The notes beneath the pieces were generated by a model. The model worked only from the letters and a program-made list of their open reading frames with translations. It had not been told where the DNA came from and did not search any database. DNA of 64,000 nt from Kofleriaceae bacterium (GTDB lineage: Bacteria > Myxococcota_A > Polyangia > Haliangiales > Haliangiaceae). Position numbers and translations under genes: made by a program. The stretch lies in the NCBI GenBank assembly GCA_018058095.1, contig JAGPCO010000017.1, forward strand, positions 1-64,000, given 5' to 3'. Numbering within the stretch: the stretch's first letter is position 1; every line of letters begins with the position of its first letter. Below are positions 57,283 to 60,023 of the stretch, in pieces.

Positions 57283-58872
57283 ATGAGCGCGCCGATCGAG
57301 ACCGACTACCTCGTGCTGGGCTCCGGCATCGCCGGCCTCAACTTCGCCCTGCGCGCGGCCGCCCACGGCCGGGTCCTGGTCGTGTGCAAGACCCGGATCA
57401 GCGACACCAACACCAACTGGGCCCAGGGCGGCGTGGCCGCGGTCCAGGCCAGCGACGACTCGCTGGCCCAGCACGTGGCCGACACCCTCACCGTCGGCGA
57501 CGGCCTGTGTGACCCGGCGGTGGTCGACCTGTGCGTGGCCGAGGGGCCGGCCCAGGTCGAGCGCCTGCTCCAGCTCGGGGTCCAGCTCGACCGCGGCAAG
57601 GACGGCGCCCTCGACCTGACCCGCGAGGGCGGCCACAGCCAGCGCCGCGTCGTCCACTACGCCGACGTCACCGGGCGCGAGATCCAGCGCGCGCTCATCG
57701 CCGCCGTCGCGCGCGAGCCCAACATCACCGTGCTCGAGGAGCACATCGCGGTCGACCTGCTGTCGATGGCCAAGTACGGCGGCGACCCGGCCTGCTTCGG
57801 CGCCTACGTGCTCGACCGCCGCAGCGGCGAGGTGTCGACCATCGTCGCCCGCGCCACCGTGCTGGCCACCGGCGGCACCGGCAAGGTCTACATCTACACG
57901 TCCAACCCCGACGTCGCCACCGGCGACGGCGTGGCCATGGCCTACCGGCTGGGCGCCGCCGTCGGCGACATGGAGTTCATCCAGTTCCACCCGACGGTGC
58001 TGTACCACCCCAGCGTCAAGAACTTCCTCCTGACCGAGGCGCTGCGCGGCGAGGGCGGCATCCTGCGCCTGGCCGACGGTCGCTCGTTCATGGAGCACTA
58101 CCACCCCCTCAAGTCGCTCGGACCACGCGACGTGGTGGCGCGCGCCATCGACAACGAGCTGAAGAAGTCGGGCGCCGAGTGCGTGTTCCTCGACATGACG
58201 CACCTGCCGGCCGAGTTCTTGCGCAAGCGCTTCCCCAACATCCACGAGCGCTGCCTGGCCCTGGGCATCGACATGACCAAGCAGCCCATCCCGGCGGTGC
58301 CGGCCGCGCACTACCAGTGCGGCGGCGTGGTCGCCGACGTGCACGGCCAGACCACGATCCGCAACCTGTACGCCATCGGCGAGGTCGCCTGCACCGGCCT
58401 GCACGGCGCCTGCCGGCTGGCGTCCAACTCGCTGCTCGAGGGCATGGTGTTCTCGACCCGGGCCGCCGCCCACGCCCGCACCGCCGAGCTGAGCCGGCCG
58501 CGTACGGTGGCGCCGTGGAGCTACGGCAGCGCGACCGACTCCAACGACGCCATCGTCGTCAGCCTCAACTGGGACGAGATCCGCCGCTTCATGTGGTCGT
58601 ACGTCGGCATCGTCCGTAGCGACAAGCGGCTCGAGCGGGCCCGCCACCGCATCGAGATCCTGCGCGACGAGATCCGCGAGTACTACTGGGACTTCAAGAT
58701 CACGTCCGACCTGATCGAGCTGCGCAACCTGGCCCTGGTCGCCCACCTCATCATCGAGAGCGCGCGCCGGCGCAAGGAGTCGCGCGGCCTGCACTCGACG
58801 CTCGACTATCCGAACAAGGACGCCGAGGCGCGCCGGTTCCAGCTCCAGCTCACCAACGGCCCGGCCGCGTGA
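57283..58872 (+). CDS. nadB: L-aspartate oxidase
   Basis: A 529-residue FAD enzyme oxidising L-aspartate to iminoaspartate, the substrate of NadA. The FAD-binding motif is LVLGSGIAGLNFAL, with WAQGGVAAV, GGHSQRRVVHY, LATGGTGKVY, FIQFHPTVLYHP (substrate pocket), LDMTHLP and CTGLHGACRLASNSLLEG, all characteristic of NadB rather than fumarate reductase. C-terminal helical domain intact. nadA is 44 kb away at 13128. Confidence 0.96.
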   Translation: MSAPIETDYLVLGSGIAGLNFALRAAAHGRVLVVCKTRISDTNTNWAQGGVAAVQASDDSLAQHVADTLTVGDGLCDPAVVDLCVAEGPAQVERLLQLGVQLDRGKDGALDLTREGGHSQRRVVHYADVTGREIQRALIAAVAREPNITVLEEHIAVDLLSMAKYGGDPACFGAYVLDRRSGEVSTIVARATVLATGGTGKVYIYTSNPDVATGDGVAMAYRLGAAVGDMEFIQFHPTVLYHPSVKNFLLTEALRGEGGILRLADGRSFMEHYHPLKSLGPRDVVARAIDNELKKSGAECVFLDMTHLPAEFLRKRFPNIHERCLALGIDMTKQPIPAVPAAHYQCGGVVADVHGQTTIRNLYAIGEVACTGLHGACRLASNSLLEGMVFSTRAAAHARTAELSRPRTVAPWSYGSATDSNDAIVVSLNWDEIRRFMWSYVGIVRSDKRLERARHRIEILRDEIREYYWDFKITSDLIELRNLALVAHLIIESARRRKESRGLHSTLDYPNKDAEARRFQLQLTNGPAA

Positions 58873-58920: not shown

Positions 58921-59038
58921 TCAGCTCGCGGTGCCTGGTTCGACGCTGATCACGCGACGCTGTTCAACCTCGCGCGCCGGCGCGCGCCGCCATCGCGCGG
59001 CCGGCACGCCGCGGCACGCGTCGGCACACCACGGCCCA

Positions 59039-59052
59039 TGAACCGCGGTTCA
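59039..59052. promoter_or_regulatory. Fourteen-base palindrome
   Basis: TGAACCGCGGTTCA is perfectly self-complementary and lies in the gene-free stretch before a terminator-bearing leader. It could be an operator. Confidence 0.35.
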
Positions 59053-59182
59053 CGGTTGGCGCCCTCGGCGCCCTGTCCGAGGCCTCAACTGCCTGGAATC
59101 GCTTGGGCCCGGTCCGGTCGCCAGCGATCCCCGGCGCCCCACGTCGGGTGGCACCGCGGTCGCAATAGCCAGGGTCACTCTC

Positions 59183-59256
59183 CACTGCATATCTGACGGA
59201 CGGCCATGCAGTGAAGGGGACCGCCGGGGCATGGTGCCCCGGCGGTTGGTTTTTTC
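59183..59256 (+). ncRNA. Candidate small RNA or attenuator leader with intrinsic terminator
   Basis: CACTGCAT (59183-59190) pairs with ATGCAGTG (59206-59213), then a 12-pair GC-rich stem ACCGCCGGGGCA-TGG-TGCCCCGGCGGT (59220-59246) is followed by TGG and six T. This is the clearest intrinsic terminator in the window. No coding region leads into it; nadB ends 350 bases upstream. It may end a short RNA or act as an attenuator before the gene at 59283, which has its own -10 box after the T-run. The RNA 5' end is not known. Confidence 0.5.
59220..59255 (+). terminator. Intrinsic terminator (12-bp stem, T6)
   Basis: Perfect 12-base stem with a three-base loop followed by TGG and TTTTTT. Confidence 0.85.
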
Positions 59257-59269
59257 GGCGCGCGGCGGC

Positions 59270-59275
59270 TATCGT
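59270..59275 (+). promoter_or_regulatory. Putative -10 box of the lipoprotein gene
   Basis: TATCGT ends seven bases before the ATG at 59283 and begins 15 bases after the terminator T-run. Confidence 0.45.
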
Positions 59276-59282
59276 TCCGCGC

Positions 59283-60023
59283 ATGCGCGCCCGCTGGTGG
59301 TCCGGACTGCTCGTCGCCGCGTTCTTCGTCGGCGCCGGCGCCGGCGCCGGCTGCACGCGCGGGCGCACCGGCGTCAAGGGCCCGGCCGCCGACGGCGTGC
59401 GTGGGCTCATCGTCGCCCTGCGTGGTGACGACCCGGCCCCGGCCTACCGGCTGATGAGCGAGCAGGCCCGGCAGGGCGTGACCTACGACCAGTTCGTGCT
59501 GGCGTGGAAGGACAGCGCGGCCGAGCGGCGCTGGCAGGCGCAGGCGCTCGAGGACGGCCTGCGCGGCGACCCCGACGTCGGCGAGACCGCCAGCGTCGGC
59601 TTCGGCGACGGCAAGGTCGTGCACCTGCGGCGCGAGGGCAAGGCGTGGCGGCTCGACGCCGCGCTGGTCGCCCGCTCGCGCGCGCGCAGCCCACGCGAGG
59701 CGATCAAGGTGCTGGCCGACGCGCTCGAGCGGCGCGACGTCGCCAGCGTGCTGGCCATCCTGTCGGCGCGCCGGCGCGATGGCCTGGCCCGCCAGGTCGA
59801 CGGCTTCTTCGCCGGCCTGTCGCGCCACCTCGCCGGCGAGATCGAGCTGCAGGGCGTCGACCGCGCCGTGCTGCGCTGGGACGACGACGGCCTGCAATAC
59901 CGCATCGTCCTGGTCAAGGAGGACGGCGAGTGGCGGGTCGACGACATCCACATCCGCGAGGCGCCGGCCGCGCCCGACGACGGCGGCGACGAGGAGAGCG
60001 AGGACCACGAGGACCGCGACTGA
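59283..60023 (+). CDS. Lipoprotein of unknown function
   Basis: A 246-residue predicted lipoprotein (VAAFFVGAGAGAGC, lipobox GAGC near residue 21-24). The mature part is helical (VRGLIVALRGDDPAPAYRLM, SPREAIKVLADALERRDVAS) with beta strands near the end (EDGEWRVDDIHIREAP) and a highly acidic tail (DDGGDEESEDHEDRD). The tandem helical units (YRLMSEQARQGV and VLAILSARRRDGL) look like a duplicated domain of the type found in envelope stress or SnoaL-like proteins; not assigned. Confidence 0.7.
   Translation: MRARWWSGLLVAAFFVGAGAGAGCTRGRTGVKGPAADGVRGLIVALRGDDPAPAYRLMSEQARQGVTYDQFVLAWKDSAAERRWQAQALEDGLRGDPDVGETASVGFGDGKVVHLRREGKAWRLDAALVARSRARSPREAIKVLADALERRDVASVLAILSARRRDGLARQVDGFFAGLSRHLAGEIELQGVDRAVLRWDDDGLQYRIVLVKEDGEWRVDDIHIREAPAAPDDGGDEESEDHEDRD

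Follow-up and report, generated by a model that had tools for sequence, protein, structure and literature searches.

Qrr, GlmY and CrcZ are sigma-54-dependent small RNAs of gammaproteobacteria, each combining a short RNA, a sigma-54 promoter with an upstream activator and an intrinsic terminator, and comparable traits, including a putative activator site, are predicted for the locus described here. Unlike those RNAs, it matches no Rfam family and belongs to an order in which Hfq was found in none of 35 genomes (the control gave a signal in 5 of 14 known genomes) and CsrA in a single one, and in none of the 17 complete ones, which does not fit a CsrA sponge. That sole CsrA (G015:C577:5513-5665, L171) comes from a genome of 12.2 Mb that is 81% complete, and is possibly a contamination. 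Small RNAs derived from 3'UTRs are a further known kind: in three relatives of the same class, a protein gene does carry a matching RNA at its 3' end, whereas the RNA of Haliangiales has its own promoter-like element.

Among myxobacterial small RNAs, only Pxr has a known role in those parts of the literature that were considered, where it is assigned to another order. Descriptions of Pxr in Myxococcus xanthus and its relatives mention stem-loops, with a first hairpin that bears a functional loop, together with a predicted enhancer region and sigma-54 promoter (PMC5568312, PMC5684412). Being likewise myxobacterial, short, hairpin-rich and of the sigma-54 type, the present RNA might be assigned to the Pxr family as a distant member, but we regard this as exceedingly improbable: the loop of Pxr is C-rich, while the one found here, GACGGACGGCCA, is G-rich; Pxr has three stem-loops, against two helices; and it belongs to a different order and lies beside the response-regulator gene pxrR (nla19), whereas most loci of the present RNA adjoin nadB and a gene for a lipoprotein. 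When two of the RNAs were compared with the 47 nt of Pxr readable from oligonucleotides, the longest shared word was of 6 nt and the longest C run of 4.

A covariance search against Rfam, proposed in the initial annotation of this DNA, retrieved no matching family: in Rfam 15, none scores above its gathering threshold either in the window or in 14 loci of relatives. The best weak match, ar35 (RF02346), aligns its 3' hairpin and T-run with ours but falls well short of the threshold (19.4 bits versus 45, E 0.16). Similarly, no publication describing this RNA emerged from a literature search, as judged by titles or the start of abstracts.

A predicted small RNA and its distribution

The window, that is, the whole stretch of 64,000 nucleotides analysed (Kofleriaceae bacterium, contig JAGPCO010000017.1), probably carries on its plus strand, at 59175-59255, a stand-alone small regulatory RNA of about 80 nt, which would be sigma-54-dependent and act through its loop. 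The hairpins and the terminator found there are read as parts of one small RNA gene, whose 5' end is predicted from the -12 base of the promoter-like element and from the start of the covariance model, and whose 3' end is placed at the T-run; the final model, R3, matches 59175-59258 with 82.6 bits (E 2.3e-19). Hairpin 1 (59178-59218, plus strand) has as its core CACTGCAT (59183-59190), paired with ATGCAGTG (59206-59213). Its existence had been correctly annotated, and its extent underestimated: 59178-59181 also pair with 59215-59218. It is followed by the intrinsic terminator (59219-59255, plus strand), made of a 13-pair stem (59219-59231 with 59235-59247), a 3-base loop and T6 at 59250-59255. 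Folded as RNA, the segment 59183-59260 reaches -41.3 kcal/mol (z -3.98), and one of 200 shuffles was equally good. Terminator scanning alone performs close to chance, with one site in 6 kb versus a mean of 0.8 in shuffles, so that the case for the RNA rests on comparison.

The comparison started from homologs of the lipoprotein gene, which returned 30 loci (L009-L038), 23 of them carrying an exact copy of GACGGACGGCC near the gene. Selecting by this string is selecting by the loop, and the invariance of the loop was hence rechecked on members defined by the covariance model. A first model, R1, was dropped, having missed hairpin 1 because MAFFT had misaligned the variable 5' side of the loop; R2 was built with a hand-drawn structure from 14 of the 23 loci, and R3 from 29 matches. 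Of the order's 35 genomes, 29 each contain exactly one strong R3 match (E<=3.5e-13); the scores partly follow by construction, 14 of these matches having built R2 and all 29 R3. We infer the order of the carrier genomes to be Haliangiales, in which NCBI places Kofleriaceae. A pattern scan of contigs selected 43 stretches, largely repeating contigs of the genome set and thus not independent evidence: 20 pass R2 at E<=1.9e-15, all in records of Kofleriaceae, Myxococcales or Deltaproteobacteria, and the remaining 23 fail, the best of them (L078) reaching 17.4 bits.

In the 29 sequences, aligned so as to fit the structure, double changes were found in 16 of the 21 pairs and in both stems (9 of the 9 modelled pairs in hairpin 1, 7 of 12 in the terminator); 98.3% of the cells are paired, a level which none of 500 shuffles attained, and which compares with 56.7% at most in slid controls. 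An alignment of 14 sequences made by MAFFT without reference to structure gave 11 pairs out of 21 with double changes and again 98.3% of paired cells, a percentage favoured by the fact that the structure had been drawn from folds of the same 14 sequences. In an alignment-free check, the best-pairing ungapped arms of 11 bp on either side of the loop form on average 9.97 pairs, and at least 10 in 24 of the 29 sequences; the shuffled values are 7.43 and 2.1%. The two hairpins and the terminator are taken beyond chance by covariation together with their conservation in 28 other genomes of the order, and the pairings described in the initial annotation can be considered real. One of the three reading frames of the RNA in the window contains stops and two are open; compensatory changes and indels in the loop argue against a peptide-coding reading.

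No strong match was found in 6 of the 35 genomes. In two of them (G017, L255; G032, L256) the nadB and lipoprotein genes lie side by side and the interval between them, which was read, contains no match: these are apparent losses of the RNA. Among 377 genomes of the phylum, scanned with stricter filters, strong matches were limited to 7, all of Haliangiales, and none was found outside the order. Weak matches (30-36 bits) in 8 other genomes of the phylum (L118-L125), as well as L117 of G013, were discarded as terminator look-alikes: they lack the loop core, the best match to it having 3-4 mismatches out of 10. In L098, on the same contig as L063 of G010, the RNA lies away from both the lipoprotein gene and nadB; a weak GreA/GreB match and a gene with a SUFU domain are found nearby.

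Promoter-like element, inverted repeat and partner gene

The 5' end had been considered not identifiable in the initial annotation. A -24/-12 element of the sigma-54 type, TGGCAC-N5-TCGCA, is located at 59149-59164 on the plus strand, as the sole match in the window (0.08 expected), and predicts a start near 59175. Elements of the GG-N10-GC type are what we take to be the sigma-54 (RpoN) pattern. When the best match to TGGCAC-N5-TTGCA within a 37-nt stretch is taken, GG-N10-G[CT] is found ahead of the RNA in all 29 loci (26 GC, 3 GT), its final base lying 34-42 nt ahead of the loop core, and the stricter TGGCAY-N5-T[CTG]GC in 25 of the 29, versus 3 of 5800 shuffles. The T found as -12 base in three loci counts against the sigma-54 reading. 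The rpoN gene (PF04552) is present in the genome of the window and in 31 of 33 genomes searched; the two genomes without a match, G008 and G010, are each 86% complete, and G010 nonetheless has the RNA. A candidate T-box was also evaluated: GGGTGGCACCGCGG, near 59147-59160, resembles the motif, but no T-box match was obtained even at E 10, and its bases fall within the conserved -24/-12 element.

Further upstream, at 59038-59053 on the plus strand, lies an inverted repeat, ATGAACCGCGGTTCAC, a putative activator (enhancer) site and the only RTSAAC-N4-GTTSAC match in the window, where 0.01 are expected. With one mismatch at most, GTSAAC-N4-GTTSAC is found 107-176 nt before the loop core in 25 of the 29 RNA loci, and in none of 580 shuffles; in 28 family genomes, exact repeats number 43 on one strand, versus 14 for the reversed pattern. 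Besides the RNA, a single gene recurs at exact copies of the repeat, in five genomes. Its product, of about 230 aa, is uncharacterised and belongs to no Pfam family; its sequence reads as that of a secreted, outer-membrane-like protein.

Matches to this partner gene are present in 19 of the 35 genomes of the order. The repeat, with up to one mismatch, precedes 15 of 18 orthologs, or 10 of 13 when the five which led to the gene are left out, and a TGGCA[CT]-N6-TG box is found in 14 of the 18, 47-101 nt below the position of the repeat. These distances are unaffected where a partner locus is cut by the end of a contig, while some distances to protein starts are offset. In G000 the gene, at about C218:140080-140649 (L152, L181), is likewise preceded by the inverted repeat and by a TGGCAY box; neither the repeat nor the TGGCA[CT]-N6-TG box was seen in 10 homologs that are more distant. 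The -12 of the partner gene reads TGGA or TGAA, departing from TGCA, which makes the use of sigma-54 less sure for this gene. The occurrence of the same repeat before the RNA and before the orthologs of the partner gene suggests that one activator is common to both. The shared repeat may provide a handle on a sigma-54 activator and its small regulon. In two genomes, 14 ORFs chosen by hand from the surroundings of the partner gene included no recognizable activator. A second group of repeat sites (L151, L156, L162) was rejected, the associated kinase-like ORFs being unrelated.

The invariant loop and the neighbouring genes

The loop of hairpin 1, GACGGACGGCCA (59195-59206, plus strand), has no other match in the window (0.03 expected). 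Its core, CGGACGGCCA, is unchanged in 29 of 29 loci, including six which were not in the first set defined by string (L054, L058, L063, L065, L066 and L067); the base before ACGG differs in L066 only. We infer that an enhancer-binding activator would bind the inverted repeat, some 100 bp upstream of the promoter, and open the sigma-54 RNA polymerase at 59149-59164, leading to an RNA of about 80 nt ending at the intrinsic terminator. Hairpin 1 would then present the invariant sequence in a large loop to its partner, most likely mRNAs met by base pairing, with neither Hfq nor CsrA. The same activator probably drives the gene of the secreted, outer-membrane-like protein, so that the RNA is likely to belong to a cell-surface response. 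Conserved across an order in whose genomes Hfq was not found, and CsrA hardly at all, and offering a promoter that can be read from the sequence as well as candidates for the enhancer and the contact loop, the RNA would make regulation without the usual helpers testable.

The search for pairing partners with GGCCGTCCGTCA in 13 genomes produced 28 sites, 10 of which are the RNA gene itself; no gene position is shared among the other 18, and only three of these (L213, L219, L225) have homologous ORFs, at differing offsets from the site. By this search, the exact complement of the 12-nt loop had no recurring gene position in the genomes covered. The mRNA of the partner gene was tried and rejected as a target: in 14 genomes the mean z was -1.06 against shuffled mRNAs, but only -0.35 (s.e. 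0.33) against shuffled loops, by which latter measure a single strong duplex, in G006, reached z -3.33. A stand-alone RNA whose loop binds or titrates a protein other than CsrA, rather than pairing with mRNAs, would account for the failure to find a recurring complementary site and for an invariance spanning 10-12 nt, which exceeds the usual length of a seed. We nevertheless hold it to be unlikely, as no candidate protein is at hand and CsrA, the best-known system of this kind, is absent from 34 of the 35 genomes. Base pairing is the mode of action which we retain as the most likely one.

The initial annotation had left two possibilities, either that a small RNA ends here or that an attenuator controls the lipoprotein gene. 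The RNA is flanked by two genes of the same strand. The upstream one (57283-58872), containing FAD_binding_2 and Succ_DH_flav_C domains, we take to be nadB from these Pfam domains and its length; its end is about 300 bases away, and not 350 as annotated. The downstream one (59283-60023) encodes a lipoprotein of 246 aa without a Pfam family, with homologs in 44 of 56 genomes, its own included, and a second, distant copy in many of them; its ATG, at 59283, does follow the T6 by 27 bases. A leader of the attenuator or riboswitch type, whose terminator decides whether upstream transcription reaches the lipoprotein gene, would agree with the finding of this gene downstream, on the same strand and no more than 374 bp from where the RNA starts, in 22 of the 29 loci. 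In 4 loci, however, the gene lies on the opposite strand (L049, L056, L060, L067), and in 3 it is missing within 1.5 kb (L054, L063, L065), one of them belonging to a genome, G021 (L065), which has the RNA and no lipoprotein homolog at all: the same-strand arrangement expected of a leader acting in cis is thus broken by 7 loci out of 29. Moreover, the annotated -10-like TATCGT is indeed present at 59270-59275 (plus strand), outside the RNA, and a TANNNT box is found between terminator and start codon, 4-12 nt before the ATG or GTG, in 21 of the 22 same-strand loci, versus 456 of 4400 shuffles, so that the lipoprotein gene appears to be served by a promoter of its own and to have little leader. 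Control by attenuation is, on these grounds, very unlikely.

Equally hard to credit is the idea of a mere by-product, in which a strong terminator of transcription from nadB or upstream is all that matters and the hairpin has been conserved by chance. It would agree with the position of nadB, which precedes the RNA and shares its strand in 22 of the 29 loci, and with the wide occurrence of look-alikes consisting of a terminator only, but not with the invariant loop, the -24/-12 element and the covariation of hairpin 1; furthermore, L049 and L056 have nadB on the opposite strand, and in L063 it was not found beside the RNA. Covariation, the invariant loop, the promoter-like element upstream and independence from the downstream gene all support the other possibility, namely that a small RNA ends at the T-run.

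Relatives outside the order

An outgroup search covered 38 genomes of the class, chosen from the genome set, in several cases because of a weak match found earlier; a match at E<=0.01 is present in 17. The best three (G075, 41.5 bits; G051, 35.3; G043, 34.4) are each the top match of their genome and adjoin a homolog of the lipoprotein gene. All three (L231, L232 and L233, respectively) start within the last codons of a gene for a Cys-rich repeat protein, whose stop codon is reached 12-17 nt after the match begins. G051 and G043 both have CGGACGGCCA as their loop, and G075 has CCGACGGCCA. A scan upstream of two of these RNAs (L037, L068) showed no element of the TGGCA type. The RNA is located between the lipoprotein gene and nadB in G075 and G051, and nadB was not found in the stretch of G043 which was read. 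In all three genomes it opposes the lipoprotein gene, an orientation also met in the four loci of the order mentioned above, and in G075 alone it opposes nadB as well. The Cys-rich gene had no match in the 29 RNA loci or in the 43 loci of the pattern scan.

An origin of the RNA from a 3'UTR, followed by independence, is plausible, the direction of the change being read from present-day loci. In its complete form this view describes an order-wide family of small RNAs, controlled by sigma-54 and an enhancer and acting without Hfq and CsrA, which would have originated in the 3'UTR of a gene for a secreted Cys-rich protein, next to the lipoprotein gene, and would then have gained its own promoter, lost the protein gene and had its strand reversed in part of the order, to share its activator today with a surface-protein gene; taken as a whole, we advance it tentatively, as somewhat less probable than an even chance. 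If true, it would offer an example of a small RNA gene arising from a 3'UTR, with intermediates of the transition to independence still visible.

In G036 and G044 the gene for the Cys-rich protein is present without the RNA (L250, L252), and in G052 the contig ends there. The Cys-rich proteins end in GVCRADYRPAG, GVCQPDYHPASQ and GVCQPDYHPAN, and a DUF7107 domain, below cut-off in the protein of G051, is clear in that of G075.
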